The position numbers were made by a program, and so were the translations under genes. The notes under the pieces are model-generated. The model saw only the letters and a list, made by a program, of their open reading frames with translations, had not been told where the DNA came from and made no database searches. A stretch of 64,000 bases of DNA from Planctomycetota bacterium. Its GTDB lineage: Bacteria > Planctomycetota > UBA8108 > UBA1146. Shown here piece by piece: positions 23,901 through 46,372 of the stretch (within the stretch, counting starts at the first letter, position 1; the number at the start of each line of letters is the position of its first letter). The DNA is taken from assembly GCA_016776905.1 (NCBI GenBank), contig JADHSM010000003.1, positions 62,001-126,000 on the forward strand, in the 5' to 3' direction.

Positions 23901-24632
23901 TCAATTATTGAAAATATAGAACGATCCAAAATTCTGTGCAGCGAGCAATTGCATAAAACTGATGCCTTCGCTGTCATTGTTGATGTAAATAGTGTGAATC
24001 GGTACTTGCTGCCAGTTCGCAGCAGTGATCTCAGACAATGTCTGATTGGTCGTATCCACACCATCACAGGTCGGTACTCCATCACTCAATATCAACATTT
24101 GTCGTGCAGGCTTACTGGACTGATTACAAATTTGTAACGTCGTAATTGCTGCAGGCGCCAAACAAGTCCAACCGTCAGGCACGAGACTATTGACCCAAGC
24201 AATCGCTGCTGCTTTTTGCGCCGTCGTCGCCGCTTTCGGCGTGGTCGACCAGGTCACTGTATTGGAACTGAAAGCCACAATACTGAATTCTGCTTGTGGG
24301 CTCAGCGAATTGACCGCCTCTGTCACCTCTTGTTGTAAATCCTCCATCGCCCCGCCCCATTCCATAGAGCCGGACTTATCGAGGCACCAAAAGAAGGCAT
24401 CCCCTTCATAATCATTCCCGTAAAAAATGATCGTTTCAGGGGCATCTTCTTCGTCGTCATCGGCCCCTCTTCCGCCCGAGGGCATATCGAGAGGCTTTCG
24501 CTCTCCAGATGCGGCTTCTGCTTCGAATGGATTCAGCCCACCCAGCAACAGAGCCACGAAGACCATACTCATTATGACAGCGAAGAAGTCTTTGGATTCA
24601 GGGTCCTTCATCTTTGTTTCATTCATGGGCAT
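23901..24632 (-). CDS. exported VWA-domain protein (paralog A)
   Basis: A ~243-residue exported protein. After the signal anchor (FFAVIMSMVFVALLLGG) comes a short acidic pro-region (PLDMPSGGRGADDDEEDAP). A single von Willebrand A domain follows. The MIDAS motif DKSGS (in FFWCLDKSGSM) and the later TCLAPA and LSDGVPTCDG blocks complete the metal-binding site. Cys pairs (CLDK, TCLAP, TLQIC, TCDG) suggest disulfides outside the cytoplasm. It is 60% or more alike in layout to the VWA gene at 25948-26628, with the pfkB-type gene lying between. The ATG at 24632 follows GGAG at a long spacing; an ATG at 24626 is also in frame. Ligand and role are unknown. Confidence 0.78.
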   Translation of the reverse strand: MPMNETKMKDPESKDFFAVIMSMVFVALLLGGLNPFEAEAASGERKPLDMPSGGRGADDDEEDAPETIIFYGNDYEGDAFFWCLDKSGSMEWGGAMEDLQQEVTEAVNSLSPQAEFSIVAFSSNTVTWSTTPKAATTAQKAAAIAWVNSLVPDGWTCLAPAAITTLQICNQSSKPARQMLILSDGVPTCDGVDTTNQTLSEITAANWQQVPIHTIYINNDSEGISFMQLLAAQNFGSFYIFNN

Positions 24633-24828
24633 TACGATTCCCACTCCTCTCACACAGCAATCCGACACGGGATGTGTGTGTCTCAGAGAACTCTTCTCTA
24701 GATCTTGCACATCCGGGAATTTCGGCGGAGTCTCCGCCAGAGAAGGATCCCCCATCAACAGGAATTAGGCCTGCTGATAAGGGTTTTAGCGGGTATGGGA
24801 TTTGCCCTCCGGAAAAATTATCCGGGGA

Positions 24829-25785
24829 TCAGGAAGGATCTACCAGTAAGGAAGAATTATTGCGGAACATCGAATTGAGCTGTGACCTGTCGGGGAGCCC
24901 CGCTATCGCTCCCGGTTTCAACGCTGCAGATGCCCCCATGAGGGATCCTCGCAACATTTTTTCACGGATCGTTAGACCATCCAGATGAGCATCTATCCAT
25001 CCGGCGACAAACGCATCTCCACAGCCAGTGCCATCCACCTCGTCCACCTCAGGAGCTTGAAGGTCTCCTACCCCATCGGAGTCTTGCCAGATCACTCCGT
25101 TTTCGCCCCGAGTGATCACCGCTGTTCCGACACCCATATCGAGACAGCGTTGCAAAGCACGATCCGGAGCCATTTCTCCGAACAACTTTCGAATCTCTTC
25201 ATCGTTGGGAGTGAACACGTCGACATATGGAAGGAGCTCTTCTAATTCTTTGAGGAGATTTCTACCTGGGATATAAATCACATCGAGAACGGTGAGAGTT
25301 CCTTGGTCACGGGCATCTTTGAACCAGCGTAGAAGGTCTTCGACATGAGGTCTTTCAGAGAGACCATGAGCATGAACCGACAATACAGCAACGTCGGCGA
25401 GGGCTTCTGAGGGCACTTCTTCGGGCCACGCGCAGTCATTAGCGCCTGTATCTGAGATAAATCGACGATCTTCACCATCCGTATTAATCACAAAAGTCGT
25501 TCCAGTTCTCTGCCCTATCTTCTGCTGAAACAGGTCTAGTCCAACACCTTCGGCGGCAAGGGCTCTCGCGAGGTAGTTTCCGAGATCGTCTTCCCCGACC
25601 GCGCCACACAACTGAACGTCTCTGCCGAGTCGCGCCAGGCCCGTCGCCGCATTTGCAGCGCAACCTCCAATGTTGAGTGAGATCTCAGGGGTTTTTGCAG
25701 AAGCACCCGCAGCAGGAATCGCCGGAATGGAGCGAGCCACCATATCCGCCACGATCGCACCGGCGCAGATCACTTTCCCTCCCAT
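24829..25785 (-). CDS. PfkB-family carbohydrate/nucleoside kinase
   Basis: A 318-residue ribokinase-like kinase. Substrate-side signature SLNIGGCAANAATGLARLG sits at residues ~35-53, and the ATP-side signature VDGTGCGDAFVAGW at ~255-268 includes the catalytic Asp in GCGD. The second signature reads DGTGCGD where DTTGAGD is usual. Many PfkB members phosphorylate sugars such as ribose, fructose or fructose-1-phosphate, and others nucleosides; the sequence does not decide. It sits between two paralogous VWA genes on the same strand. A five-unit 14-bp tandem repeat lies 20 nt upstream of its ATG. Confidence 0.85.
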   Translation of the reverse strand: MGGKVICAGAIVADMVARSIPAIPAAGASAKTPEISLNIGGCAANAATGLARLGRDVQLCGAVGEDDLGNYLARALAAEGVGLDLFQQKIGQRTGTTFVINTDGEDRRFISDTGANDCAWPEEVPSEALADVAVLSVHAHGLSERPHVEDLLRWFKDARDQGTLTVLDVIYIPGRNLLKELEELLPYVDVFTPNDEEIRKLFGEMAPDRALQRCLDMGVGTAVITRGENGVIWQDSDGVGDLQAPEVDEVDGTGCGDAFVAGWIDAHLDGLTIREKMLRGSLMGASAALKPGAIAGLPDRSQLNSMFRNNSSLLVDPS

Positions 25786-25804
25786 GACTCCACCTCAACT
25801 CTCA

Positions 25805-25873
25805 ATGTTTACCAACAAATGTTTACCAACAAATGTCTACCAACAAATGTCTATCAACAAATGTCTATCAACG
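25805..25873. repeat. tandem repeat, five units of 14 bp
   Basis: Units ATGTTTACCAACAA / ATGTCTACCAACAA / ATGTCTATCAACAA start at 25805, 25819, 25833, 25847 and 25861 (the last one degenerate), an exact 14-bp period. It lies between the start of the pfkB-type gene (25785) and the terminator of the VWA gene downstream. Confidence 0.92.
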
Positions 25874-25882
25874 CTTGTTGTA

Positions 25883-25925
25883 AAATGGAAGAAGGGCCGA
25901 AATCCGGATTGGACTTCGACCCTTC
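25883..25925 (-). terminator. intrinsic terminator of VWA paralog B
   Basis: GAAGGGCCGAA (25891-25901) pairs with TTCGACCCTTC (25915-25925) over 11 positions with one mismatch. Read on the minus strand, the stem is followed by TTCCATTTT. It ends the VWA gene at 25948. Confidence 0.7.
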
Positions 25926-25947
25926 GCCTGAACGTCTTGTTCCGTCC

Positions 25948-26628
25948 CTAGTTGGGCTGGAAGAATGTTCCATTGTTTTGTGCGGCCAGTTGCTGCATGA
26001 ACGAGATTCCGCCGGTGTCACTGGCGATGTAAATCGTGTTCACGGGAATCTGTTGCCAGTTGGCGGCCGCCACGTCGGTCAGACACTGGGAGGCGGTATT
26101 GGTCCCGTTGCAGTAAGGCTCACCGTCCGAGAGGATGAGAACCTGCTTCATGGCTTTCGAGCACTGGTTCGCAATGTTGAGTGTCTCCACTGCGGCAGGG
26201 CCCAGACAGGTCCACCCGGCAGCATTCAGGTTGAGCACCCATGCGGTAGCGGAACCCTTATTGGCGGGGTTCGCACGCTGCGGCATCGGATTCCAAACAG
26301 AGTGACCTTCAGAGAAAGCCACGACACCGAACTCGGCTTGTGAGGAAAGAGAGTTCAATGTTTGCGTGAACTCTTGCTTCAAATCTTCGATCTCACCGTT
26401 CCAACTCATAGAGCAGGACTTGTCGAGACACCAGAAGAAGGCATCACCTTCGTACTCGCCACCCCAGAAACTGATCGTTTCAGGAGCGTCTTCTTCCTCA
26501 TCTCCGTCTCCGGCACCTCCGGATGGGAGATCCAGTGGACGACGAGAAACTTCATCGGACTGACCGACGAGCCAGCCAGCTGTGCTCATTACAAAAAGAA
26601 AGGCAATCATGAGGGTCAAGATGCGCAT
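25948..26628 (-). CDS. exported VWA-domain protein (paralog B)
   Basis: A ~226-residue exported protein. The signal peptide (MRILTLMIAFLFVMSTAGWL) is followed by a pro-region almost the same as in paralog A (PLDLPSGGAGDGDEEEDAP) and one VWA domain. The MIDAS motif is DKSCS in FFWCLDKSCSM; the fifth position carries Cys where paralog A has Gly, while both Ser residues are kept. TCLGPA and LSDGEPYCNG follow. Start at 26628 is chosen because GAGAGG lies 6 nt upstream; the ATG at 26634 is too close to that site. The two paralogs bracket a sugar-kinase gene, all reading leftward. No partner is evident. Confidence 0.78.
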   Translation of the reverse strand: MRILTLMIAFLFVMSTAGWLVGQSDEVSRRPLDLPSGGAGDGDEEEDAPETISFWGGEYEGDAFFWCLDKSCSMSWNGEIEDLKQEFTQTLNSLSSQAEFGVVAFSEGHSVWNPMPQRANPANKGSATAWVLNLNAAGWTCLGPAAVETLNIANQCSKAMKQVLILSDGEPYCNGTNTASQCLTDVAAANWQQIPVNTIYIASDTGGISFMQQLAAQNNGTFFQPN

Positions 26629-26896
26629 GGCCATCCTCTCAAAACAGGTCAGTTTGGGACCAACCGGTATCTCTTGGGGCTCTGAACAAGATCTTGAAAC
26701 CAAGACCTGTTCCACTTCTGCAGATCAATCTGCACGTCATCAGGAAGACGCAGAGAAAGTGTGAATCCCTCGCGGGATTTTGAACTTTTTCTTCTTTTCC
26801 TGAATTCCCATTGTCATGCAGATTCGATCGAATTTGTAGCCCTTTCTCGAAGTGACCCTGCAGGATATGGTGACTTTTGAAATGAGGAAATCACCG

Positions 26897-27442
26897 ATGA
26901 ATCAGGCTCTCTCTACCAAAATTGGTGTCTTAACAGTCTCTGACAGGGCTTTTAGGGGTGTTTATGAAGATCGGGGAGGCCCCGAAGTGCGAAATTGGCT
27001 CACCCCCCGAATTCCCAATTGCCCTCCCTTTGAGATGCGAATTGTCTCGGATGACCGCTCGTTGATCGCGGCCGCCATCGAGGAAATGGCCGCTGAATGC
27101 TGCCTGATCATCACGACAGGAGGAACTGGCTTCGGCCCCCGAGATATCACCCCCGAAGCCACTGCGGATGCCTGCGAAGTGCTCATTCCCGGTTTTGGCG
27201 AGAAGATGAGAGCCAAAACCTGGGATCAGGTGCCCACGGCCATTCTCTCCCGAGCCACCGCCGGGCGAAGAGGGACCTGCCTCGTGATCAATCTTCCTGG
27301 AAATCCAAAAGCGATCTCGGAGTGCCTCGACGTGATTTGGACCGCCATTCCGCATGCCATCGAGACCGCTGGAGGGCCCGATCTGGAAGCGGAAGATGCC
27401 GCTCCTGCTCCTCATGATCCGCCGGAGAAAAGTCCTTCGTAA
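26897..27442 (+). CDS. mog: MogA/MoaB-family molybdopterin adenylyltransferase-like protein
   Basis: A ~181-residue MPT-binding-domain protein of the MogA/MoaB type. Motifs seen are KIGVLTVSDRAFRGVYEDRG near the N-terminus, IITTGGTGFGPRDITPEAT in the middle and LPGNPKAISECLDVI near the end. MogA adenylylates molybdopterin in molybdenum-cofactor synthesis. The C-terminal ~20 residues (Ala/Pro/Glu-rich) are outside the domain. The ATG at 26897 follows GAGG at 9 nt; ATGs at 26852 and 26867 are also possible but would add unconserved residues. Its last ~31 nt overlap the 3' end of the convergent bshA gene. No other cofactor genes are nearby. Confidence 0.88.
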   Translation: MNQALSTKIGVLTVSDRAFRGVYEDRGGPEVRNWLTPRIPNCPPFEMRIVSDDRSLIAAAIEEMAAECCLIITTGGTGFGPRDITPEATADACEVLIPGFGEKMRAKTWDQVPTAILSRATAGRRGTCLVINLPGNPKAISECLDVIWTAIPHAIETAGGPDLEAEDAAPAPHDPPEKSPS

Positions 27443-28542
27443 GCCTGCTCATATCTTTCGATCACTGGGGCCCAACGGAACAGATCCATCACCCGTTGTC
27501 GTCCCTGCTCTGAAAACTGATTTCGTTTTTCAGAATTGAGCAACAGTTCGCGTGTGCCCCGAGCCAGAGATTCGATATCGCCCACAGGGGATAAAAATCC
27601 GGTCTCACCATCCACGACCACTTCTGGGATCCCCCCCGAGTCTGTGGCTATCACGGGTAACCCTGATGCCATCGCCTCTAGGGCTGCCAGTCCGAATGAT
27701 TCGCTCTCGCTCGGAAGTAAAAACAGATCAGTACCGGCGAGCAACGGTGCTGTGTCATCGATGATCCCGAGCCACTCCACCCGATCCTGAATTCCCAGTT
27801 CACGTGCTTCAGCTTGTGCGGAAATCAACTCAGGACCGTCTCCGATCATCAACAACCGTGCAGGAATATCCTGTGCTGCGAGAGCAAAAGTCTTCAGTAC
27901 GTCTTTAGTTCTTTTCACCGGGCGGAAGTTACTGACATGGGAGATCAACAATTCTCCTCCGGAAGCAAAGCGTTCCCGCAACTCAGAACACGCCTGATCT
28001 CGAGAGAACACCTCAGCATCGACGGCATTGGGAATCGTATTGACGAAGAGATCGTCACCGAGTTCTTTGCGCGTAACCTCTGCAAGCCAATCACTCACTC
28101 CAGTGACATAGTCACTCTCCTGCATCGCCCATCGTGTGATATCGGTGTAGGAAGGATCGGATCCAATGAGAGTGATATCGGTTCCATGCAGGGTAGTCAT
28201 CACCTTGACGTTGCGATCGGCATTCATGTTTCTCGCCAAAATACCTGCAAGTGAATGGGGAATGGCGTAGTGAGCATGGATCACCTGGATGTCGTGATCC
28301 TGAATCACTTGCGACAATTGATTCGCAAGTGCCAATGCGTAAGGAGGATATCTAAACAGCGGATATGAACTGACATGGACCTTGTGAAAGCGAACTCCAA
28401 AAGTCAGAGGATCCAAACGGAAGGGACGTTCATGGGAAACGAAGTGAACTTCGTGTCCTCTTTTTGCCAATCGCATTCCCAATTCTGAAGCGATCACTCC
28501 GCTTCCTCCATGTGTGGGATGGCAGACCATGGCGATCTTCAT
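27412..28542 (-). CDS. bshA: N-acetyl-alpha-D-glucosaminyl L-malate synthase
   Basis: A 376-residue GT4-family glycosyltransferase that catalyses the first step of bacillithiol synthesis: UDP-GlcNAc plus L-malate gives GlcNAc-malate. Hallmarks are CHPTHGGSGVIASELGMRLA at the N-terminus, HAHYAIPHSLA, GTDITLIGSDPSY and LISHVSNFRPVKR. The ES-ESFGLAALEAMA nucleotide-sugar block is also present. These fit BshA rather than a generic glycosyltransferase. It is the last gene of a methyltransferase-bshC-bshB1-bshA operon. Its ATG (28542) overlaps the bshB1 stop by 4 nt. Confidence 0.93.
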   Translation of the reverse strand: MKIAMVCHPTHGGSGVIASELGMRLAKRGHEVHFVSHERPFRLDPLTFGVRFHKVHVSSYPLFRYPPYALALANQLSQVIQDHDIQVIHAHYAIPHSLAGILARNMNADRNVKVMTTLHGTDITLIGSDPSYTDITRWAMQESDYVTGVSDWLAEVTRKELGDDLFVNTIPNAVDAEVFSRDQACSELRERFASGGELLISHVSNFRPVKRTKDVLKTFALAAQDIPARLLMIGDGPELISAQAEARELGIQDRVEWLGIIDDTAPLLAGTDLFLLPSESESFGLAALEAMASGLPVIATDSGGIPEVVVDGETGFLSPVGDIESLARGTRELLLNSEKRNQFSEQGRQRVMDLFRWAPVIERYEQAYEGLFSGGS

Positions 28543-29309
28543 GAAGATATCCCCTTTGGGTCAACAGCTGAGAGACCTGAACCAGCGATCATGTCCACCG
28601 GATTCGCCACTGCAGGAGGATCTTGCCAAACGATGGCCTCCCCCAACTCAACGCCGCCACGTCCTCCCAGATCTCGAGCTCTGCCTTCAACAGCAGCCAT
28701 AAATCCAGGCTTCGAAATTTTCGTAGGCGGACCATCGTTTTCAGGGTCGAAAAATTGCGACGCGTAACACTTCACAACTTCCACCTTTTGGCTCCAATGA
28801 TCTGAGACATCGACAATCACACTCGGCTCGAACGGAGTATGACACATGTAATAACCTAACGTGGCGGGACGATGCTGTACGGAAGCAGGTTTCCCATGGG
28901 GATACATCTTCACACCACCGAGATAAAGACTTCTATAGGCAAGGAGACCCGCTCCCGCATGATCGGGATGAAGGTCATCTCTCCATGGAGCCAGCAACAC
29001 TCGGGGTCTTGTTTTTCGAATCACACCTACGAGTGCTTCTCGAGCATCATCCGTATCCCTCACAGAACCATCTGGAAGATTCAGGCATGTTCGAAAATGT
29101 ACTCCGAGAAGTTCAGTTGCCGCCTTCGTTTCTTCCGCACGCAATTCGGGGGTACCCCGACTCGAGAGTTCTCCACGGGTTAAATCAACGATACCCACTC
29201 GTTTACCGGCAGCGATGGTTGCCAAAATCGTCCCGCCGATGGAAATTTCTGCATCGTCAGGGTGTGCTGCAACAACCAGAAGATCGAGAGGTTCAGCAAG
29301 ATGAGACAT
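28539..29309 (-). CDS. bshB1: bacillithiol biosynthesis deacetylase (BshB1-type)
   Basis: A ~256-residue zinc-dependent LmbE/PIG-L deacetylase. The metal motif AAHPDDAEISIGG is at the N-terminus and HPDH (in DDLHPDHAGAGLLAYRS) supplies the third ligand. The family acts on GlcNAc-malate to make GlcN-malate. RGELSSRGTPELRAEET and YPHGKPASVQH-RPATLGYYMC are the BshB1-like blocks. The ATG at 29309 is chosen because AAGGA lies 5 nt upstream and it leaves the normal N-terminus; an upstream in-frame start at 29399 would add a basic tail. It overlaps bshC by 17 nt and bshA by 4 nt. Confidence 0.93.
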   Translation of the reverse strand: MSHLAEPLDLLVVAAHPDDAEISIGGTILATIAAGKRVGIVDLTRGELSSRGTPELRAEETKAATELLGVHFRTCLNLPDGSVRDTDDAREALVGVIRKTRPRVLLAPWRDDLHPDHAGAGLLAYRSLYLGGVKMYPHGKPASVQHRPATLGYYMCHTPFEPSVIVDVSDHWSQKVEVVKCYASQFFDPENDGPPTKISKPGFMAAVEGRARDLGGRGGVELGEAIVWQDPPAVANPVDMIAGSGLSAVDPKGISS

Positions 29310-30915
29310 CGGAATCCTTCTCTTTGGGGCTCTTTTGCGGGGCGTTCGCCCTCGGATGCGTACAATTCTCAGAAATGATCCACGGACAAACACAACCATC
29401 CCAACGACGAATTGCAGTGTCTAAAACTGCCGCGACTTCGCTCAAACAGTTGAAACCTTGCCAGCTGATCAAATCCAAAAGGTTTCGAGACCTTTCCGGT
29501 TCCAAACCTCCGGGAAAGATATCTTCCAGCACGGCCAACACTTTTTGCCGTCGGGCTTCCACGTCTCGATCCAGTCCCTCTTCGACAGAACGCTTCAACG
29601 CGTTCAATTGTTGCCGCCACCGAAGCGACATCCTTGCCGCTTTACGGTTCAAAGTCGGATTGGAGTGTTGCTCATGGGCTAAAGAATCAAGGATCTGTAA
29701 TAACGGATCCGCCGCCAGACTTAATTCTTGCCCACGCAACTCTGCTTTGGGAGAAGGAACCACTTCGATCGGATCGAGTTTTGGACCGAGTCGATCGAGA
29801 CCTATTCCGAGTTCCTCCAGTCGGTCCAAATGATCTCTTTGAACAGGCCTGACAGCAGGACGAGGGAGCAATAGAGGCCTTGGCAAGTTCCAAAGTTGAC
29901 GAAGACGGCGCGTCTGAAGTGTGTAACACAACTCGGTGGGACCCACTATGACAGCCGCAGGATCCAGCAGAACATCCTGAACGATTCCCCGAAATAATGC
30001 ATCCGGCGAGAATGCTTCTGGATCTCCTAGAAGTTGAGCAGTGGATCGGGTTGCCGTCTTTTCGAGTCGAACCCTGTCCCCATTCTCATCATGCCAAAAG
30101 AAAGGTGAACCCGACCGCACTCTGACGGGGGCAGGAATTCCGAGAGCTTCCTGATCCATCGAAGCCTGCTGAATCTCTGCTTGGAATTCTTCGGCTTTCT
30201 CATGGGCCATTTTCATCAACGGCATTTGAAGTTCACGAAGAGCTCGTGGGAAAACGGGTAACCAGCCTTCATCGGGCAACAACTCCAGCAGCAACTCGAC
30301 AAATTCCCGGCCCGGATCGACCTCTTCAGAGATGAGTTTCTCACATTTTTGAAGAACGCTTTCAGCATGAGGAGCAGCGCCGAGGCTCACCTTCAACGCT
30401 TCGAGTCGCTCACTTGCTGATGAGGCAGGGGTCAATGAGTAGAAAGGACGAAGTCCCGGTTCAAACTCGGCGGGGATCGATTTGTTTGATACAAATTCCC
30501 CAGGGTCCAACTCACTCACATCATGATCATCGTCAGCCACCCAGAACAATGGTACGGCAGGGATACCCTGACTATTCAAGTCAGCAGCGAGCCTTGTGGC
30601 CGCCAATAACTTTGTCGTACAAAGAAGAGGACCTCCCCAAAGAGCCGGTTGTTGCCCTGTAACGATAATACGGCACTCAGGGTCATTGAGTCGTTCCTGT
30701 GCCAGCCGTGAAGACTCCGGCAAATCAAGCGTCGCCCACAGCGGGCGAAGCGCTTGAATCAATCGTTCTCGGGTTTCGGGGTCAGAGTGGTGATCCCCGA
30801 CATCACGTGCGACATCTTCAGATCCCAAAGCCAACTTGCCAAACAGATCTTCAGCAACGGCACCTCCTCGTAATCTCAAGTCGAGGGCATTTTGAGGTGA
30901 TTTCTTCATGGTCAT
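29293..30915 (-). CDS. bshC: putative cysteine ligase BshC (bacillithiol synthesis)
   Basis: A 540-residue protein of the BshC family, proposed to add cysteine to glucosamine-malate to give bacillithiol. Family blocks seen are IVTGQQPALWGGPLLCTTKL, PLFWVADDDHDVSELD, VGPTELCYTLQTRRL and a long helical C-terminal domain with coiled coil. Length is close to the usual 530-540. The ATG at 30915 overlaps the methyltransferase stop as ATGA and follows a GGGGGG site; an in-frame upstream start at 31017 would extend into the methyltransferase gene. This completes a bshA-bshB-bshC set in one operon. Confidence 0.93.
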   Translation of the reverse strand: MTMKKSPQNALDLRLRGGAVAEDLFGKLALGSEDVARDVGDHHSDPETRERLIQALRPLWATLDLPESSRLAQERLNDPECRIIVTGQQPALWGGPLLCTTKLLAATRLAADLNSQGIPAVPLFWVADDDHDVSELDPGEFVSNKSIPAEFEPGLRPFYSLTPASSASERLEALKVSLGAAPHAESVLQKCEKLISEEVDPGREFVELLLELLPDEGWLPVFPRALRELQMPLMKMAHEKAEEFQAEIQQASMDQEALGIPAPVRVRSGSPFFWHDENGDRVRLEKTATRSTAQLLGDPEAFSPDALFRGIVQDVLLDPAAVIVGPTELCYTLQTRRLRQLWNLPRPLLLPRPAVRPVQRDHLDRLEELGIGLDRLGPKLDPIEVVPSPKAELRGQELSLAADPLLQILDSLAHEQHSNPTLNRKAARMSLRWRQQLNALKRSVEEGLDRDVEARRQKVLAVLEDIFPGGLEPERSRNLLDLISWQGFNCLSEVAAVLDTAIRRWDGCVCPWIISENCTHPRANAPQKSPKEKDSDVSSC

Positions 30916-31679
30916 GAATTCCCCCCCACTCGAGACGAAACAAATATCATTCGAGGAGAGATTCCATCCTCGTGCCCATTGCCGTCCCAGTCTCCATAAC
31001 AAAACTTCGATTCCCAACCACTCGCCTGCAGTAGGGTCTCAATTTCTTCGCGCGAAAAGAGACGCACCGATTCCGTGTAGTTTCGATTTTCGCCAGGTCC
31101 CGTGATGGTCACTGTTTTTTCGACCCTCATTTTATCCGCTGTCATGGATCTCTCTTCACGGATAGTCCGGTCACCCACACGTCTTTCACTGCTCGGAATC
31201 AATTGTTCGATCGTCGTTGCACGATCAGGGAGGTCGAGTAGAAAAAGCCCTCCGGGAGAACAAACCCGGGCCACTTCAGCCAAAACTCGACGATTTTCTT
31301 CGTCCCCAGCAAAATAGCCAAAGGAGGTGAAAAACATCATCACGTGGTCAAAGAAATCTTGTTCGAAGGGCAGGTCACGCATATCTGCCCTAGAGAGGGA
31401 AACATCTTCACTCAAATGGCGACGTGCTTCGGTGAGAAGATCTTTGGACAAGTCCACGCCATACAACTGACACTGTGACTCCTGGAGCCAAAAGGAGTGT
31501 CGGCCGGCACCACAACAAAGATCTAACAACTTTTGACCGGGAGCAGGCGAGAGCCATTTCAGAGCAGCGAGAGCTTCATTTCGAGCCGACTCGACCGTTC
31601 TGGCCGGATAGACTTCGAGATAGTCGGCGACGAAAGCCTTCTCGAACCAGTACTCGTGTTCCGTATCTTGACGATCCAT
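30912..31679 (-). CDS. class I SAM methyltransferase heading the bacillithiol operon
   Basis: A ~255-residue methyltransferase. SAM motif I is LLDLCCGAGRHSFWL and the acidic motif II position reads YGVDLSKDLL. ADMRDLPFEQDFFDHVMMFF forms motif III/IV, with CSPGGLFLLDLPD after it. The C-terminal half has a beta-rich insert seen in small-molecule methyltransferases. ATG 31679 is chosen because GGAG lies just upstream; an in-frame start at 31739 is less likely. It overlaps bshC by 4 nt, so it is part of the bacillithiol operon. In Chlorobi a SAM methyltransferase converts bacillithiol to N-methyl-bacillithiol; this gene is a candidate for a similar step. Confidence 0.8.
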   Translation of the reverse strand: MDRQDTEHEYWFEKAFVADYLEVYPARTVESARNEALAALKWLSPAPGQKLLDLCCGAGRHSFWLQESQCQLYGVDLSKDLLTEARRHLSEDVSLSRADMRDLPFEQDFFDHVMMFFTSFGYFAGDEENRRVLAEVARVCSPGGLFLLDLPDRATTIEQLIPSSERRVGDRTIREERSMTADKMRVEKTVTITGPGENRNYTESVRLFSREEIETLLQASGWESKFCYGDWDGNGHEDGISPRMIFVSSRVGGNS

Positions 31680-31862
31680 ATTCTCCAGATTTGCTGAATG
31701 GGGCCATTTCCTATCATCCCGCTGATGAGGCCCCTCCACAAGGGAACCGATTGGCCTTCTTCTGACGTTTTCTTGCCACTTGCCTGCCCCCGCTGTTCGA
31801 GTTACTCAGGGGGGTCTGCAGGAATACCGATGCTCAGAGAAGTCCATGGAAGGGAAACCCGG

Positions 31863-34748: not shown

Positions 34749-35882
34749 TTGGAAAGCCTAAGGTTCAGGTGTTGGCCCCACCTGCTCATAGTGGCATCCG
34801 TGATTCTTTTGATGAAAGACTCACTGATTGCCCAAATTCCCCTTGCCGATTTATCGCCTATCCCTATCACGGATCAGGCGCCTCAAAATCCAGCGGAGGG
34901 GAAGATCGATGAGGACGATGGTCGCGATGACCTCGGACGCCTTGAAAAAGGCGTGGCTGTGGAATCATTCTCCGGAATCGTTCCAGCTTCATTACCACTA
35001 GGAGAACGCCTGGTCTTCGAAGCCACTGTCGAGTGGAAAGGGGCCCAAGTCCTCGTCGGTCATTTGGAATTGGCCTCATTTCAAGAGGACCTCGAAACCA
35101 CCATTCTTCATGCCCGAGGAAAAGGTGAGAGATTCGGTTACTTGATCGATCAACAAATTACTTCCCGACTTGATCGCATGACCGGGCAACCCATCGAGTA
35201 CATCAATGTCCAAAGAGGCTCAGAATATCACACGAAAAAGTTGCTCTTTGAGAATGGCTCTATCAGCTACAAAAAACGAGAGCACTGTAGGAAATCAGAT
35301 TGTTCTCATCCAAAACACAACATTGCGGAGGTCTCTTGGAAAGGTCCCATTCCTTGGGGGACAAAGGATCAACATTGCGACGACAAGAAATGTGGAAATC
35401 CTACTCATGAGTCATGGGTCGTAAAAAAGGTCCATCAAGTCGATGAGCCTTATGTTGACTTGCTCACCTCTATCTTTGTTGCAAGAACAGCCAAATTTCC
35501 GAGCGATGATGAAACCATCATCATTCCAGCGATCAATGACGACTCACGCTGGTTTGTCGAAGTGAAGAAACTGCAGACGAAAGAGATCACTGTTAAAGAG
35601 GGCACGTACGAAGCCATCGAACTCAGCCTCTCTCCCCTATCTTCCGATGGGAATGAAAAGAAACGCTTCAAGGGGCTTTTTGGAATCCATGGCACTCTCC
35701 GGGTTTGGATCGACTCTATCTCTCGCAAACCACTCCTCATTCAGGGTACACTTCCGGTCTCGGTTCTCGACCTGAAGGCCAGAATTGAACTGATCTCTAC
35801 TGGGGACGCCGAGATCGTTAAGCTACGTAGGGCCTCAACACAGAAGGCCCTTTTAGAGAAATCTGCCGAAAGGCCTCGATGA
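34749..35882 (+). CDS. exported DUF3108-domain protein with duplicated Cys/His motif
   Basis: A 377-residue protein. A signal anchor (LLIVASVILLMKDSLIAQIP) leads to a beta-rich DUF3108 domain, which begins LPLGERLVFEATVEWKGAQV and ends near KARIELISTGDAEI. Inside it, two copies of HC-x4-C-x2-P-x-H stand exactly 30 residues apart (His179-His190 and His209-His220), a possible metal-binding insert. DUF3108 proteins are mostly periplasmic with unknown function. TTG 34749 follows GGAG at 5 nt. Its TGA overlaps the selA ATG by 4 nt, so it is translationally coupled to selA. This coupling is the only evidence for a link with selenium. Confidence 0.75.
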   Translation: MESLRFRCWPHLLIVASVILLMKDSLIAQIPLADLSPIPITDQAPQNPAEGKIDEDDGRDDLGRLEKGVAVESFSGIVPASLPLGERLVFEATVEWKGAQVLVGHLELASFQEDLETTILHARGKGERFGYLIDQQITSRLDRMTGQPIEYINVQRGSEYHTKKLLFENGSISYKKREHCRKSDCSHPKHNIAEVSWKGPIPWGTKDQHCDDKKCGNPTHESWVVKKVHQVDEPYVDLLTSIFVARTAKFPSDDETIIIPAINDDSRWFVEVKKLQTKEITVKEGTYEAIELSLSPLSSDGNEKKRFKGLFGIHGTLRVWIDSISRKPLLIQGTLPVSVLDLKARIELISTGDAEIVKLRRASTQKALLEKSAERPR

Positions 35883-37285
35883 CCCCCACCGAAATCGGTG
35901 CATTGCTCAGAAAACTTCCACAAGTCGATCGACTGATGAAGTTCGACAAGATGGAATCTCTCAGCCAACAGCACTCAAGATCACTCGTTCTCGCAGAATG
36001 TCGGTCATTGCTGGATTCACTGCGTGCCCGGGCACTCGCTGGAGATGCTGGGGAAGAGGACTTTTCAGAAGACATCATCATCCAGCGACTGTCTGATCGT
36101 CTTTCAGAAAGACAAACACCCTTCTATCGCAGAGTCATCAACGGGACAGGAATCGTGCTCCACACCGGGCTTGGAAGAGCACCTCTGGCATCGGAGGTCG
36201 CAGATTCTCTCGTCGAGCAACTGAGGCATCCGGTCCGGGTAGAAATAGATCTAGAATCTGGACTTCGCGGAAATCGCGATGAAGGCTGTGTGGATTTGAT
36301 CAGGGAGCTGACGGGTGCTGAAGATGCCACCGTGGTCAATAATAATGCCGGAGCAACACTGCTTCTATTATCTGCCCTTGCCAAGGATCAGGAAGTCCTC
36401 GTCTCTCATGGGGAACTCGTAGAGATCGGCGGTTCATTCCGTATTCCAGACATCATGGAACAAGGTGGAGCGCGCTTGAAAGCAGTGGGAACTACCAATA
36501 GAACCCGAGCCCGTGATTACGATGAAGCCTGTTCCAGTGACTCGGGAATGATCCTGAAAGTTCACACTTCAAATTACAAAGTCGTCGGCTTTACTGAAGA
36601 AGCTGAGATATCCGAATTGTGCACCGTTGGAAAAACTCATGGAGTCCCCGTCGTACATGACATGGGCTCTGGCTGCATGGTCGATCTGGCATCCCGGGGA
36701 TTACGTGGAGAATCTTGGGTTCGTGACAGCCTAGAGAGTGGCTGTGCCCTTGTCTGTTTCAGCGGAGACAAACTCTTAGGTGGACCTCAAGCGGGTATTA
36801 TTGCGGGTAGTGCTGATCTTGTTCAAAAGTGCAGAAAGCACCCTCTATACAGAGCGATGAGACCCGGTCGCATGACCTATATTGCCCTTGAGCAAACATT
36901 GCGTATTTACCTCCGAGGCGAAGAAGAGTCGATCCAGAGTATTCCTTCCTTGAGAAGGGTTTTGGATACTCCCGAAACGCTGAAAGAGCGACAGGAAAAA
37001 CTTCACCATGATTTATCCCGCTTATCCGACCTTCAAGTTCACCTCCTAGACCATGACGGATACGCAGGAAGCGGCTCATTGCCCGCACAGCCCATTAAAT
37101 CTCTGGGCCTAAAGATCACCTCTCCCCTTCTGGCCACTGCTGAGTTAGCTCGAAAACTGCGCACTGGGGAGCCCTCCATATTGCCGACAGTTCAGGATGA
37201 CGCCATCATTCTGGATGTTCGCACCCTTGAGGATGAAGAACTGGACGTGATCGTCGCCCGATTCTCCGAGATCCTCGCTTCCTGA
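35879..37285 (+). CDS. selA: L-seryl-tRNA(Sec) selenium transferase
   Basis: A 468-residue PLP enzyme that converts seryl-tRNA-Sec to selenocysteyl-tRNA-Sec using selenophosphate. The PLP lysine lies in CFSGDKLLGGPQAGIIAGS (K298). The N-terminal SelA domain (LLRKLPQVDRLM), GTGIVLHTGLGRAPL and the VNNNAGATLLLL block fit the family, and length matches the usual 460-470. It shares a 4-nt overlap with the DUF3108 gene upstream and is followed after 91 nt by selD and tRNA-Sec. Confidence 0.96.
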   Translation: MTPTEIGALLRKLPQVDRLMKFDKMESLSQQHSRSLVLAECRSLLDSLRARALAGDAGEEDFSEDIIIQRLSDRLSERQTPFYRRVINGTGIVLHTGLGRAPLASEVADSLVEQLRHPVRVEIDLESGLRGNRDEGCVDLIRELTGAEDATVVNNNAGATLLLLSALAKDQEVLVSHGELVEIGGSFRIPDIMEQGGARLKAVGTTNRTRARDYDEACSSDSGMILKVHTSNYKVVGFTEEAEISELCTVGKTHGVPVVHDMGSGCMVDLASRGLRGESWVRDSLESGCALVCFSGDKLLGGPQAGIIAGSADLVQKCRKHPLYRAMRPGRMTYIALEQTLRIYLRGEEESIQSIPSLRRVLDTPETLKERQEKLHHDLSRLSDLQVHLLDHDGYAGSGSLPAQPIKSLGLKITSPLLATAELARKLRTGEPSILPTVQDDAIILDVRTLEDEELDVIVARFSEILAS

Positions 37286-37376
37286 TCAGATCAACAATCT
37301 GAACCAGATCGACTCTGAACTCTTGACCAGAGAGTGCCGCGGGGTGATCTTTCACTTTGAAAGAGAGGAGGCCAAG

Positions 37377-38432
37377 ATGTCTGATACACCGATTCGCCTG
37401 ACAAATTACGCTTCGTGTGCGGGCTGAGCGGCCAAGCTCTCCCCCGGGGACCTGGTCGAGGTCCTCTCTAACTTTAAGATGCCCAGTCGGGAAGAAGTCC
37501 TACATGGCCCCGGTACTCTCGATGATGCTGGCGTAGTTCGCATCCCGGGAACCGACAAAGCCATCGTTCAAACTGTCGATTTCTTTCCGCCTATCGTCGA
37601 TGACCCCCGAGAGTTCGGACGCATCGCAGCCGCCAATAGTCTTTCAGATATCTATGCCATGGGAGGATTACCTCTCAGCGCTCTCAACATCGTGGGATTC
37701 CCAGAGGAATTACCGATGACCATCCTCGGAGAAATACTTTCCGGAGGAGCAGAGAAAATGGAAGAAGCAAATTGTGCCCTTCTCGGCGGTCATAGCGTCA
37801 GGGATGCTGAGATCAAATACGGTCTTGCAGTCACCGGGACCATCGATCCTGATCATATGCTGACCAATGGTGGAGCCCGGGCAGGAGATGTTCTCGTCCT
37901 CACCAAATCTCTGGGAACAGGAACCGTCAGCACCGCTCTCAACAAATCAGAAGTTGACGCAGACATTCTTGCAACAGCCACGACATCCATGTCTACATTG
38001 AATGCTGCTGCGGCTCAGATCGCCATGAATCATGGCGTAAAATCTGCGACAGATGTTACGGGCTTCGGGTTGTGCGGACATGGATCTGAAATGGCTCTCG
38101 CCAGCAACGTCGACATCTATTTTCACGCTTCAAAGCTTCCCCTTCTCCCAGGTGTCGCAGATCTTGCGAAAGCAGGATTTTGCTCTGGAGGCTCGGGGAG
38201 AAATAGAGCTCATTTGGGTGATCGACTCTCCGTCGAACAGGGCATCGAAGAATCTCTCGTTTCGCTCTGCCTAGATTCTGAAACTTCAGGAGGCTTATTG
38301 ATCGCCATTCCAGAAGATCGAGTCGATGGATTGTTGTCAGACCTTCAAGACTCCGCAGGGGTGGCAACCCATGAGGTGATCGGCGAAGTCAAAACATCGA
38401 CAGGCACCCCGAGAGTATCGATTCTGAATTGA
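37377..38432 (+). CDS. selD: selenide, water dikinase containing selenocysteine
   Basis: A 351-residue SelD that makes selenophosphate from selenide and ATP. The frame runs from ATG 37377 (AGAGAGGAGG upstream) through an in-frame TGA at 37425-37427, which reads as selenocysteine 17 in YASCAGUAAKLSPGDL; this is the catalytic Cys/Sec position of the family, followed by the conserved Lys. The rest is uninterrupted: FGRIAAANSLSDIYAMGG, GGHSVRDAEIKYGLAVTG, the KSATDVTGFGLCGHGSEMA ATP block and SETSGGLLIAIP. A start at 37479 downstream of the TGA would remove the catalytic residues. tRNA-Sec lies 97 nt downstream. Confidence 0.96.
37425..37466 (+). promoter_or_regulatory. UGA(Sec) codon and probable bacterial SECIS region of selD
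   Basis: TGA at 37425-37427, immediately followed by a GC-rich stretch. GGCCAAG can pair imperfectly with CCTGGTC, enclosing TCCCC/GGGGA. Bacterial SECIS hairpins sit right after the UGA, which fits, but I cannot verify a conserved apical GU loop. Confidence 0.6.
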
Positions 38433-38528
38433 CACCTAGAGGGCGTCTTCCCAGTGTCCAATCTGGCCGATAATTGAATGTGTATCTTGCCAAACCGGAA
38501 TGCTGTGCCAAACTTAATCATCCACTGA

Positions 38529-38626
38529 GGGGGTGAATGGGTACCTGGTGGGCCTCCTGGGTTTCAAACCCATGGTGCGGCGCGAACAACGTCGTAGGTC
38601 GGTTCGATTCCGATGCACCCCCGCCA
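38529..38626 (+). tRNA. selC: tRNA-Sec (anticodon UCA)
   Basis: A 98-nt tRNA with encoded CCA. The acceptor GGGGGTG pairs with CACCCCC, followed by discriminator G and CCA. The anticodon loop TTTCAAA gives TCA within a TGGG/CCCA stem. A long variable arm (TGCGGCG / CGTCGTA, 7 pairs with two G-U) and a T-arm TCGG-TTCGATT-CCGA follow. Extra length and long variable arm match selC. It completes a DUF3108-selA-selD-selC locus; no selB is present in this window. Confidence 0.95.
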
Positions 38627-40735: not shown

Positions 40736-41581
40736 TCAATCTGTGGAAAAATCCATCTCCCGGTGTCCAAACAACTGTCTTAGTTTCAGTACAGTTCTAC
40801 TGTGCAGTTGGCACACACGGGATTCAGAGAGTCCCATACGCGATCCGATTTCTTTCATCGTCTCACCCGCCCAGTAATACCGGGTAAAAATCTCGCGCTC
40901 TCTCTCATCTAGTTTTTCGTTGAGCGCTTCCATGATGGTTTCCATCTGAAGATTGGCCTCAGGAGCAGGAGTCTTCGCATCATTCAACATATCGATTTTT
41001 CGAAGTGATCTGGAATCGGTTTCTTCTGAGACGTGATCAGTAAGAGAGACGATAGATGCAGCAGAAGCTTCTCTCTGCAGCTGGTCAAACTCCGACTCCG
41101 TCACACCGAGATAATTGGCCATCTCGAGATCAGTAGGCTCTCTACCAGAAGACAATTCGAGTTCCTTGTAGGCTTTATCCAATCGACTGGCAGTACTTCT
41201 GACCAATCGGGGAACCCAATCCTGAGCACGGAGAGAATCGATGATCGATCCTTTCACCCGTGTATTGCAGTAGGTCTCGAATTTCACGCCACGTTCTAGA
41301 TCATAGTTTTCAATGGCGTCCATCAATCCAAAGACGCCCGCACCATACAAGTCATCAACGTCGACCTGCTGTGGCAGTTTCCTATGAAGGCGATCTGCGG
41401 CATATCTCACGATGGGGAGATATCTCTCTAACAAATCATTTTTTATATCAGTGGACCTTGTTTCCTTGAATGAGATCCACTGCTTCTCTAGATCGGGGTC
41501 GTCACTCAGTCGGGTTTTGCCGACTAGGGATTTCATTCCGTGAAGATCTTCCCGGGTATCGCTGTTCTCAACCTGAGTCAA
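40736..41581 (-). CDS. fliA: flagellar sigma factor, sigma-28 (FliA/WhiG family)
   Basis: A 281-residue sigma-28 factor that directs RNA polymerase to late flagellar promoters. Region 2 shows LPIVRYAADRLHRKLPQQVD and DLYGAGVFGLMDAIENYD (residues ~52-95), region 3 LRAQDWVPRLVRSTA, and region 4 TRYYWAGETMKEIGSRMGLS-ESRVCQLHS. The TTG at 41581 follows AGGAG at 6 nt; an ATG at 41536 is the alternative. It lies 138 nt downstream of flhG at the end of the flagellar operon. Confidence 0.95.
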   Translation of the reverse strand: MTQVENSDTREDLHGMKSLVGKTRLSDDPDLEKQWISFKETRSTDIKNDLLERYLPIVRYAADRLHRKLPQQVDVDDLYGAGVFGLMDAIENYDLERGVKFETYCNTRVKGSIIDSLRAQDWVPRLVRSTASRLDKAYKELELSSGREPTDLEMANYLGVTESEFDQLQREASAASIVSLTDHVSEETDSRSLRKIDMLNDAKTPAPEANLQMETIMEALNEKLDEREREIFTRYYWAGETMKEIGSRMGLSESRVCQLHSRTVLKLRQLFGHREMDFSTD

Positions 41582-41692
41582 ATCAGTCTCCTGTTCCTGT
41601 AATAGCTGCTCTTAGTTAGGATCCGGGCTATCCATTTTTTTTGAAGTCAGCCCAGTCGTTTCCCTATGGCAAGTATTGGGCCGGAATCTTGA

Positions 41693-41730
41693 GTTCTCCA
41701 AAGAACACTATTGTTTCCATTATGGAGAAC
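41693..41730. promoter_or_regulatory. inverted repeat at the flhG stop codon / upstream of fliA
   Basis: GTTCTCCA (41693-41700) and TGGAGAAC (41723-41730) are perfect 8-bp arms around a 22-nt loop that also holds the palindrome TCCAT-T-ATGGA. One arm includes the flhG 3' end (stop TAA at 41722-41720). There is no T-run, so it is not a standard terminator. It could be an mRNA element or binding site between flhG and fliA. Confidence 0.6.
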
Positions 41731-42607
41731 GCTCACGACCCCTTCCGAGATCCCCTACAAACACTTCTTTTAACCTATGCAGGAATCCCCTATCCACCGG
41801 ACGGGGCTGCTTCATTCCAAGGCCATCCGACAATTCCCTAATGCTTCTCGCAGCGGGAGAGGTGGGATAGGCCATAGTGAAATGTTGACGCTTACGGACT
41901 GAAGCAGAGACCCTTGGGTCGTACAACACTGCGCCGCCATCTTGTAAATCCATCGATAAGAACTTCTTCGCCAAACTTTTTATTCGGCTGGTTACCTGCT
42001 GAGCTTCTCCCCTCGACTGCGCTTGATTGACGGTCAACCAACAGTTCGGGATTCTCACTTCACATGAAAAGACTTTCAACATCGCATAAGCATCCACGAT
42101 GGCTGTCGGCTCTGGTGTCGTCACAACCAATACTTCTCCAGCGGCATGACAGAGATCAACGACCGACCTTGAGATACCCGCTCCTGTATCAATGATCACG
42201 AGATCGTGATCACTGACCAATTCTCCAAGAGCGTCCAGTAATCTCTGTTGACGGGAGTGTCCCATATCAGCGATACGGCTGAGGCCACTGGCTCCGGGAA
42301 GAATCTGGATTCCTTCCGGCCCCGTGATCAGGACCTCTCTCAGCGATGCTTCCCCGTCGACAAGATGCCCCAAATTTTTACCCGGATGCAAATCGAGGAG
42401 AACGTCAATATTGGCGAGACCTAAATCACCGTCGATCAAGGCAGTTCGGATACCAGATCTTGCGGCACTCAGTGCGAGCCCCACAGAGATGTTGGTTTTA
42501 CCGACCCCGCCCTTGCCACTGGTTACAGCGAGAACTCGCCCCCTACCTTCAACAGGGGAGGCTTTCTCCTCGATCAATGATCGCAGTTTCCAGGCCTGAT
42601 CTCTCAT
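41720..42607 (-). CDS. flhG: MinD-like ATPase FlhG (flagellar number regulator)
   Basis: A 295-residue P-loop ATPase of the MinD/ParA group. The deviant Walker A motif AVTSGKGGVGKTNISVGLA is present, with switch DGDLGLANIDVLLDL and IDTGAGIS. Typical of FlhG is the short basic N-terminal helix before the P-loop. In other bacteria FlhG works with FlhF to set flagellar number and position. Its ATG (42607) overlaps the flhF stop by 4 nt. fliA lies 138 nt downstream. Confidence 0.94.
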   Translation of the reverse strand: MRDQAWKLRSLIEEKASPVEGRGRVLAVTSGKGGVGKTNISVGLALSAARSGIRTALIDGDLGLANIDVLLDLHPGKNLGHLVDGEASLREVLITGPEGIQILPGASGLSRIADMGHSRQQRLLDALGELVSDHDLVIIDTGAGISRSVVDLCHAAGEVLVVTTPEPTAIVDAYAMLKVFSCEVRIPNCWLTVNQAQSRGEAQQVTSRIKSLAKKFLSMDLQDGGAVLYDPRVSASVRKRQHFTMAYPTSPAARSIRELSDGLGMKQPRPVDRGFLHRLKEVFVGDLGRGRERSP

Positions 42608-44187
42608 TCAACTCCGAGGATCATATCTCTGATTTTTTCGCGAGACGCCACTTCAATGTCTTCTGGAACTTCCTGACCACACGTCACATAGGAAACAGGA
42701 ACCGGCATGACGCCAAAGAGATCCCAGAGGAATCCTTTTCTGTAGGACTCATCTTTCTTGGTAAAGATCACCTTGTCATATCCCACAAGTCGGAACGCAT
42801 CGGCCGTCGCCATGAGTGCTTCTGGTGAAGCACCCAGTGACAAACAGAGATGGACCTCAAGGTCTTCGACATTAGCGAGACAATCCCGAACTTCGGTGAT
42901 TCGATCCACGTCTTTTTGGCTACGACCAGCGGTATCGATGAAGACAACGTCGTGGTTATCGAAGGAATTGATTTCCTCAGTAATCTTCCCTGGCTCACTG
43001 ATGGTCTTAAAGGACAAGCCAATGATGTCAGCGAATCTACGCAGTTGCTCGATGGCCCCCAGTCGATACGAATCGAGAGTGATCAAGCCGACTCTCTTTT
43101 TCTCGACGACGTGGAAATGTGCAGCAAGCTTGGCAAGCGTCGTTGTTTTTCCAACTCCAGTCGGCCCGACCAGCGCAATGATGCGAGTTTTACCTTTAGT
43201 TTTCCCAAGATCGATCGCTCCAGGAGCTGGGATTCTTCCATAGATACATGCGCCCACTCGCGATTTAATCAGATCGTCCAACTGCTCAGGACTTAAGTTG
43301 CTTGGAACTTCAGACGAGATCACCGCGGACAGAATCCCATTCTTGGCATGCTCGGGAATCCCACATTTCTCAAGGAAAGTGGCGACTCTACCGAAGAATG
43401 CAGGATCGTCATAAGTCGTACTTGTCTGAGTAATCTCTTCGGAATAACTGCTCACTGTATCGTTGATCTGTGAAATCGACGGGTGATCAAAGACGTCTGT
43501 CGCCACCTTTAGATCACTGTCTGTTTGCCAAGAGTCCGGCTGCCTATGAAAAGGAGAAGACGAGTTAAAGTCTCTCAGTTCATCTGCGATTCTCTGGCGA
43601 GATCCCTCAAGTCTTGAAGACAAGTCTTTCAAGATGGAACCCTTGGACACATTGTCAGTTGTTTTATTCATCTCACGCGCCTCTATACCGGAAATGAATG
43701 AATTTTCTTCCGCCATTGAATCCTGCTCCAATTCAATTCCTGACTCATGCTTTGAAGCATGAGATTCGTGACGAGTGCTATTTTCAAAATTATCTGATTC
43801 GACAGAAGCCATCGGTTCTGTTGAGAAATCACTACCGTAATTGGCATCTACTGGGGTGCTATCGACTTCGTCTTCATCGGAAGCCATCTCTCCAGCCAAG
43901 ACAGGAACCTCGACCGACGTCTGATTGTTGACCGGAGATTTGTTGACCGAAGATTCGACGACTACAGGTAGAGGAAGGATGTCATGGCTAGATTTTTGTG
44001 TTCTTACGATCACGACAACATCAGAAAAACCGATCCAGCCTAATAGCCCAGACCTTCTGACTTTTCGAGAATGAACGACTGTCCAGTCACTTCCGAATCT
44101 CTCTTGGAGGATTCGAACTGCAGTCGCATAGTCCGGTGCCACGACACGGGTGTGCTCCGCATCGATAAGATCCTTATTGTCATTCAA
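42604..44187 (-). CDS. flhF: flagellar SRP-family GTPase FlhF
   Basis: A ~527-residue SRP-type GTPase that targets the flagellar pole or site in relatives. The N-terminal B domain (TRVVAPDYATAVRILQERFG) is followed by an acidic, low-complexity segment (~residues 90-240), longer than usual, and then the NG GTPase domain. G1 is ALVGPTGVGKTTTLAKLAAH, then GLITLDSYRLGAIEQLRRF and VFIDTAGRSQKD. TTG 44187 is preferred: it starts at the family N-terminus and follows GGGAAAGGGA. The ATG at 44286 overlaps flhA by over 100 nt and adds 33 unconserved residues. Confidence 0.93.
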   Translation of the reverse strand: MNDNKDLIDAEHTRVVAPDYATAVRILQERFGSDWTVVHSRKVRRSGLLGWIGFSDVVVIVRTQKSSHDILPLPVVVESSVNKSPVNNQTSVEVPVLAGEMASDEDEVDSTPVDANYGSDFSTEPMASVESDNFENSTRHESHASKHESGIELEQDSMAEENSFISGIEAREMNKTTDNVSKGSILKDLSSRLEGSRQRIADELRDFNSSSPFHRQPDSWQTDSDLKVATDVFDHPSISQINDTVSSYSEEITQTSTTYDDPAFFGRVATFLEKCGIPEHAKNGILSAVISSEVPSNLSPEQLDDLIKSRVGACIYGRIPAPGAIDLGKTKGKTRIIALVGPTGVGKTTTLAKLAAHFHVVEKKRVGLITLDSYRLGAIEQLRRFADIIGLSFKTISEPGKITEEINSFDNHDVVFIDTAGRSQKDVDRITEVRDCLANVEDLEVHLCLSLGASPEALMATADAFRLVGYDKVIFTKKDESYRKGFLWDLFGVMPVPVSYVTCGQEVPEDIEVASREKIRDMILGVE

Positions 44188-46372
44188 AGGTCGATTCCCT
44201 TTCCCCTGAGAGGGTCGATTCTGTTGAACAGAAATCAGCCCTCGCCATCCCCCCGGATACCACGGAGAACCCGTGTGCGATCTCATTGTAGGAGAGGACA
44301 GACGCCTTTGGCACTTCCTTCTCCAGTAACTTCTTAATTGATACTCTCAGCTCAGGCGGACACAGAACCACTGCCGGATATCCACCCCGCTCCAGTTGAT
44401 CCACCTGGTGGCTGACAGATTGCAGGATGGCCCGGTAGCGCTCGGGAGCCAATTCCGGAACAGCTCCCGGAATCCCCTGATTGCGAGCTTCAAAGAGACA
44501 CTGCTCACTTTCGGGATCGAGAGTCACCACCCGAATCACTCCCTCAGAATCGGCCAAAGGCCCACAAATCGACCGAGAAACCCTGTTTCTGACCTTTTCC
44601 ACCACCGCTTCGACCGGGCGCCGAGAGGCCTCTGGCCACTCGATAGCCACCTCTCCGAGAGCTTCCAGAATTTTTTCGAGATCCCTCAGTGAGACTTTCT
44701 CGGAAAGAAGGGCCTGAAAAACCCTCTGAACCTCGGCGACGCTGAACACCTCTGGAATCAATTCCGCGACCAGTGGGCGAGCCCCAGGATGGATTTCCTC
44801 CAAGAGAATTTTCGTCTCATTACGAGTCAGGAGATCTTGAGCATAGTCAATTGTCATCTGGCGAAGCTGTCCGATCAAAATCTCCTGGCCACTTTCACAG
44901 TGATATCCCAGGCTTCTCCTCATCGTCGCTTCGTCTTCATCTATCCACTTACCGGATTTACCGCTGACGGGATGAGGCGCAGGATCACCCGGAACAGTAT
45001 TCAAAGAGCGATCTGTTTCGGTGACGAAATACTTTCCCCTTTTAAGCTCCGTTAAGCAGGTGGGGATTTCTCTCAACAATATTCGATATTCTTGCCTACC
45101 CAAATTTCGCTGAATTGAAACCTTCACAGGAGGAAGATCTATACCGAGTTCCTCTCGGATTTCATTTCTTAAATTTTCAATCGAGGCCGAGAGAGAAGAT
45201 TCTTCTTTGGAAGAGATCAGTCCTCTCAGGCCTGGACCCAACTCGATGACGAGGGGTCGCTGAAATGCGTTTTGTCCCTCATGGGATATCGCTGCGCTGG
45301 AAGGCTCTACTTCATGGTCGTGAACTTGTTCCGCTGGAACGGTACTCACAGAATTCTCGTGCGATTTTTTCCTGCTCGGGGAAAGACTGTAAGCCAGGTA
45401 AACCAACACTAAAGACAATGATCCCAGTGCCATAGGAGACAAACCAACGGAGGCCAGAGATAACAGCACCATCGCAGTGATCAACAACGCTCTTGGATTG
45501 GCGAAGACCTGCCCCACCATGACGTGCCCGATTTGCCCCTTTGATGAAGCTCGTGTCACCATGAGTCCTGCCGCCACGCTGATGAACAATGCTGGAAGTT
45601 GCGTGGCGATTCCATCGCCAATGGCTAAGACCGAGAATACTGATACGGATTCCCCTATCGACATCCCAGACTGGAAAACTCCGATCGCGATGCCTCCGAA
45701 AATATTAATCGATGTGATTAACACCGCCGCAATGGCATCTCCTCGAACAAATTTACTGGCGCCGTCCATCGCTCCGTAAAAGTCCGCTTGATGGGCTAAA
45801 TCTTCTCTCGCTAATCGTGCCTCTGAGGCGCTGATGTTTCCCGCTGTGAGGTCGGCATCGATCGCCATTTGTGCACCAGGCATACGATCGAGCGTAAACC
45901 TAGCAGCGACTTCTGCTATTCGAGAAGCTCCTTTGGTGACAACAACAAACTGAATAACAGCCAATACAGCAAAAATGATAAATCCAACAACGGCATTAGA
46001 TGCCGAAACGAACTCACCAAAGAAATTCACAACTTTTCCAGCCGCGAAGCCACCTTCTTGCCCCGCTTTACTGAGAATCAATCGAGTTGTCGCAATGTTC
46101 AATGCCAGTCGATACAGAGTGGCAATCAATAACATCGAAGGGAAGGCCGCAAACTCCAGAGGACTTTTAAGGTAAACCACCGTGAGCAATATCAACACCG
46201 AGATGGCAATGTTGACTCCAAGCAACACATCCATCACTGGCCCCGGTAAAGGAACCAAAATCGCCATCAATATTCCGCCCAAGGCGAGAACGAGAACTAA
46301 ATCCCGATTTTTTTGAACGGAGCCCTTCCAGTCATTCGGAGCGCTCAAATTATTCAATGGGGTTGGGTTCAT
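44180..46372 (-). CDS. flhA: flagellar export gate protein FlhA
   Basis: A 730-residue protein of the type III export gate. About eight membrane helices occupy residues ~22-330, with the FHIPEP signature near RLALNIATTRLILSKAGQEG and the GNISASEARLAREDLAHQAD loop. A cytoplasmic domain (~residues 345-730) binds export chaperones. Length is slightly over the usual ~700. Its ATG overlaps the flhB stop by 4 nt (ATGA). It lies in the flhB-flhA-flhF-flhG order common to polar and other flagellar clusters. Confidence 0.96.
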   Translation of the reverse strand: MNPTPLNNLSAPNDWKGSVQKNRDLVLVLALGGILMAILVPLPGPVMDVLLGVNIAISVLILLTVVYLKSPLEFAAFPSMLLIATLYRLALNIATTRLILSKAGQEGGFAAGKVVNFFGEFVSASNAVVGFIIFAVLAVIQFVVVTKGASRIAEVAARFTLDRMPGAQMAIDADLTAGNISASEARLAREDLAHQADFYGAMDGASKFVRGDAIAAVLITSINIFGGIAIGVFQSGMSIGESVSVFSVLAIGDGIATQLPALFISVAAGLMVTRASSKGQIGHVMVGQVFANPRALLITAMVLLSLASVGLSPMALGSLSLVLVYLAYSLSPSRKKSHENSVSTVPAEQVHDHEVEPSSAAISHEGQNAFQRPLVIELGPGLRGLISSKEESSLSASIENLRNEIREELGIDLPPVKVSIQRNLGRQEYRILLREIPTCLTELKRGKYFVTETDRSLNTVPGDPAPHPVSGKSGKWIDEDEATMRRSLGYHCESGQEILIGQLRQMTIDYAQDLLTRNETKILLEEIHPGARPLVAELIPEVFSVAEVQRVFQALLSEKVSLRDLEKILEALGEVAIEWPEASRRPVEAVVEKVRNRVSRSICGPLADSEGVIRVVTLDPESEQCLFEARNQGIPGAVPELAPERYRAILQSVSHQVDQLERGGYPAVVLCPPELRVSIKKLLEKEVPKASVLSYNEIAHGFSVVSGGMARADFCSTESTLSGERESTFE

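Follow-up and report, generated by a model that had tools for sequence, protein, structure and literature searches.

A probable N-methyl-bacillithiol operon with an NmbA-type methyltransferase in a planctomycete

Nearly all cells rely on small thiols to keep their redox balance and to detoxify, and in 2018 Hiras et al. placed the Planctomycetes among the major lineages without a documented or predicted low-molecular-weight thiol (PMC6282198). That remark was all that we found on planctomycete bacillithiol in the literature; the supplement of a 2025 survey (PMC12719100) may already count some planctomycetes. The window, by which we mean the whole 64,000-nucleotide stretch of planctomycete DNA analysed here, carries a SAM methyltransferase gene at the head of a set of bacillithiol genes, and raises the question of which thiol these genes make and what the methyltransferase methylates. 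From the sequence comparisons presented below we consider it highly likely that the locus is a complete planctomycete N-methyl-bacillithiol operon with NmbA, whose product would be the main small thiol of the cell and would be used with a bacilliredoxin. The methyltransferase is very probably the known enzyme NmbA, of the ordinary type.

The four genes lie on the minus strand in the order methyltransferase–bshC–bshB1–bshA, running from 31679 to 27412. The leading gene, nmbA (30912..31679, 255 aa), encodes a class I SAM-dependent methyltransferase, predicted to be a bacillithiol N-methyltransferase, and is followed by bshC (29293..30915, 540 aa) for a divergent form of the bacillithiol cysteine-adding enzyme, bshB1 (28539..29309, 256 aa) for the GlcNAc-malate deacetylase, and bshA (27412..28542, 376 aa) for the N-acetyl-glucosaminyl L-malate synthase. 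The methyltransferase gene overlaps bshC by 4 nt (ATGA), bshC overlaps bshB1 by 17 nt, and bshB1 overlaps bshA by 4 nt. A preliminary description of this DNA had listed the same four genes, coordinates and overlaps with the strand unstated, and all were confirmed. It had also described the bshA, bshB1 and bshC set as complete, which is borne out by curated models and PDB searches: each of the three genes is present and intact in the operon. BshA scored 473 bits with TIGR03999 (cut-off 274) and matched the BshA structure 5D00 (E 5.6e-92), while BshB1 scored 233 bits with TIGR04001 (cut-off 182.5) and matched 6P2T, named deacetylase 1 (E 1.3e-37). For BshC, of which the operon copy is the only one in the genome, TIGR03998 gave 185 bits (E 2.8e-54), under the equivalog cut-off of 265.8, with an alignment covering positions 16-519 of the 529 in the profile; Pfam PF10079 gave 132 against a cut-off of 27, and the structure 4WBD was matched with an E of 1.9e-15. 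Its full length and a Pfam score above the cut-off, set against a score under the NCBI equivalog cut-off, lead us to call it a divergent BshC. In the PDB searches, structures of BshA, BshB and BshC ranked with the top hits or were the only ones.

On one side of the operon lies a convergent molybdopterin-adenylyltransferase-like gene, and on the other a divergent priA. Matches to the priA model begin at residue 55-61 of the open reading frame at 31698, and the probable start of priA is at about 31832, leaving a gap between operon and priA (31680..31831) that likely holds the operon control region; a promoter scan of this gap found no sigma-70 consensus. Elsewhere in the window, positions 23901-26634 encode a PfkB sugar kinase between two VWA-domain proteins, and in relatives the kinase and the nearer VWA protein still adjoin the bsh operon. 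Positions 35879-38622 form a selenocysteine cassette composed of selA (35879-37285), selD and tRNA-Sec (38529-38622). Our reading of selD begins near 37374 and passes through an in-frame TGA where Sec is usually encoded (SCAGUAAKL); because of this codon a plain list of open reading frames starts the gene too late. Further on, the genes at 40736-44286 resemble, by sight, a cluster for flagellar regulation that encodes FliA (a sigma factor), FlhG and FlhF.

When the methyltransferase was compared by phmmer with all sequences of solved structures, the top match was 9RI2 (133 bits, E 8.6e-38), the crystal structure of the Chlorobaculum tepidum bacillithiol N-methyltransferase, CtNmbA (PMC12719100). 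The second match, the sugar N,N-dimethyltransferase 3BXO, scored 63 bits. A search of the window's genome with CtNmbA returned this methyltransferase first (E 8.8e-38) and the next protein at 1e-5, so that the two are best matches in both directions, with 36% identity over 236 aligned residues. The 2025 survey recognised NmbA by an E below 1e-20, coverage above 80% and identity above 25% (PMC12719100), and our protein lies within these thresholds, its E of 8.6e-38 coming from phmmer rather than BLASTP and its alignment covering residues 10-248 of 255. The class I SAM features are conserved (LLDLCCGAG as motif I, D76, D99, Y122, F123 and G144). Many family models match weakly, and no NCBIfam model specific for another function reached its cut-off. 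The preliminary description had held that clear homology to RNA or protein methyltransferases would speak against a role in thiol methylation, and the family and structure-sequence searches revealed none.

An AlphaFold2 model built from a 54-row alignment (pLDDT 92) confirms, at the level of a predicted structure, a fold of the class I small-molecule methyltransferase type. Foldseek placed CypM first with this model and 9RI2 fifth (TM 0.66-0.73, rmsd 7.8), a ranking to be read with the report that AlphaFold misplaces the Cap strands of CtNmbA itself, giving a wrong topology for a Cap whose strand order in 9RI2 is unusual (PMC12719100).

An alignment of 54 planctomycete copies, with CtNmbA left out when the columns were chosen, contains 19 invariant columns; 18 are comparable with CtNmbA, which is identical at all 18, as is the window protein. 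A five-residue signature (Y20, Y24, R27, K188 and E203) is complete in CtNmbA and in 63 of 64 planctomycete copies, is common to copies adjacent to bshC and copies elsewhere in the genome, and is complete in none of six related paralogs; as these residues were chosen after the alignment had been seen, the signature is a description and no independent test. Some of the paralogs lacking it are about as close to CtNmbA (30-35%) as the window protein is (36%). In a phylogenetic tree, a branch with support of 99/86 separates the paralogs from CtNmbA and the planctomycete copies; short PDB fragments and distant methyltransferases of the same genome were left out of this tree, both having given meeting long branches earlier.

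Two genes with in-frame TGA codons deserve separate mention. In one relative (G057) a selenocysteine reading of the codon was rejected, and the TGA is a plain stop. In another (G072), the gene for a methyltransferase related to NmbA, on contig C120, contains two in-frame TGA codons; this contig has 64% GC and a 1562-codon frame that is open only with TGA read through, and with the standard code long frames are present on two other contigs of the same genome. C120 may be recoded or foreign.

We then turned to 118 genomes, comprising the window's own and its relatives and covering 94 genera, counting the methyltransferase at an E of up to 1e-25. Both the methyltransferase and BshC were found in 62 genomes, the methyltransferase only in 4, BshC only in 10 and neither in 42; Fisher's test, which takes no account of relatedness, gives p 8e-18. 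The two genes are less than 1 kb apart in 42 genomes, and this linkage reaches from the window's family to another family of its order, to other families of the class and to other families of the phylum. Of the 20 longer loci, 19 have nmbA-bshC-bshB-bshA in this order on one strand, with bshC and bshB some 3 kb apart in one of the 19; such conservation goes far beyond what chance would give. The nearest named genome, a near-identical metagenome-assembled genome called 'Planctomycetia bacterium', has the same gene order and a methyltransferase 97% identical to ours. That the window's own genome belongs to a planctomycete is also seen in its 16S rRNA gene, which fits the planctomycete probe sites PLA46 and PLA886 with no mismatch.

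Among planctomycete relatives the four-gene arrangement is not rare, and it differs from that of Bacillus. Bacillus subtilis shares the three core enzymes BshA, BshB1 and BshC, but there bshC lies apart from bshB1-bshA, whereas the window has a divergent bshC placed after nmbA; to our knowledge B. subtilis is without nmbA. Chlorobaculum tepidum, which belongs to another phylum, has bshA, bshB and bshC in its genome together with NmbA (CT1040), a class I SAM methyltransferase sharing the 36% identity and the signature mentioned above. The activity of this enzyme is biochemically proven, whereas that of the window's NmbA is predicted. In C. tepidum the locus tags of the four genes are scattered (CT0548, CT1419, CT1558 and CT1040; PMC12719100), in contrast to the single overlapping operon described here.

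Taken together, its nearest relative CtNmbA (9RI2), its signature residues, its co-occurrence with BshC and its usual adjacency to bshC support the proposal of the preliminary description that the methyltransferase may methylate bacillithiol. That description had left room for the same thiol or an intermediate. The first part stands; the second is less likely. As its gene leads the operon, immediately upstream of bshC and overlapping it, and as BshC is divergent in this family, the methyltransferase might act on GlcN-malate or, ahead of BshC, on free cysteine, and not on completed bacillithiol (BSH). We consider this quite improbable, as the window protein and CtNmbA carry the same signature residues, and CtNmbA methylates reduced BSH in vitro, and not BSSB, glycine or GSH; PpNmbA of Paenibacillus polymyxa likewise methylates BSH and is inactive on glycine and GSH (PMC12719100). 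Moreover, C. tepidum was never seen to contain N-methyl-cysteine, and deletion of nmbA in this organism leads to loss of N-methyl-BSH and accumulation of BSH (PMC6282198).

A substrate unrelated to bacillithiol, such as an antibiotic sugar, a RiPP or RNA, would make the methyltransferase a member of the operon by position only. The generic class I domain, with its weak matches to many family models, and the first rank of CypM in the fold search would agree with this, but no specific family model reached its cut-off, the methyltransferase gene stays beside bshC in different families and classes, and its presence follows that of BshC also in genomes where the two are unlinked, all of which leaves such a substrate very unlikely. 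It is more unlikely still that the operon has decayed, or that it yields only bacillithiol next to an inactive methyltransferase: BshC does fall short of the NCBI equivalog cut-off, yet all SAM-site and signature residues are intact, the frames are intact with 97% identity in the second genome, and nearly all relatives within the family have intact orthologs.

Our preferred reading, then, is an N-methyl-bacillithiol operon. Gene identities, operon layout, orthology signals, linkage and co-occurrence are what the sequences show, and from them we infer catalytic activities, an order of steps and a thiol present in the cell: BshA, BshB1 and BshC would make bacillithiol, NmbA would methylate it, and the N-methyl-bacillithiol formed would serve as the main small thiol, working with a bacilliredoxin encoded elsewhere. 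The genome, about 2.9 Mb and 94% complete, encodes a bacilliredoxin of family PF06491 (186 bits, G000:C9:12156-12560) with a CGC motif in VNSVCGCAAGG. Among 14 control genomes this family was found in Bacillus subtilis only, and among the relatives PF06491 and BshC occur both in 62 genomes, one alone in 3 and 10, and neither in 43. The gene just upstream of the bacilliredoxin gene encodes an ArsP-type permease whose tail contains Cys, which may point to a link between metals and the thiol. No glutamate-cysteine ligase (PF04107 and PF04262) was found in this ~94% complete genome, nor did any Bdr/YpdA exceed the cut-off in it (best score 130 against 340 bits). Bdr/YpdA is typical of BSH users and unnecessary for synthesis. 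The best candidate under the threshold (around G000:C24:247558-248370) is a protein of 768 aa in which a TrxB/YpdA-like reductase seems to be fused to a ferredoxin-type membrane domain.

The enzymes and the pathway were already known, and the planctomycete carrier is the new part. The linkage of nmbA to the bsh genes offers independent genomic support for the role of NmbA, and a phylum-wide operon with a co-occurring bacilliredoxin predicts N-methyl-bacillithiol. Much of Planctomycetota probably has N-methyl-bacillithiol as a main small thiol, by inheritance of an old operon with the order nmbA-bshC-bshB-bshA. If true, this would close the gap named in 2018, when no low-molecular-weight thiol was documented or predicted in Planctomycetes (PMC6282198).
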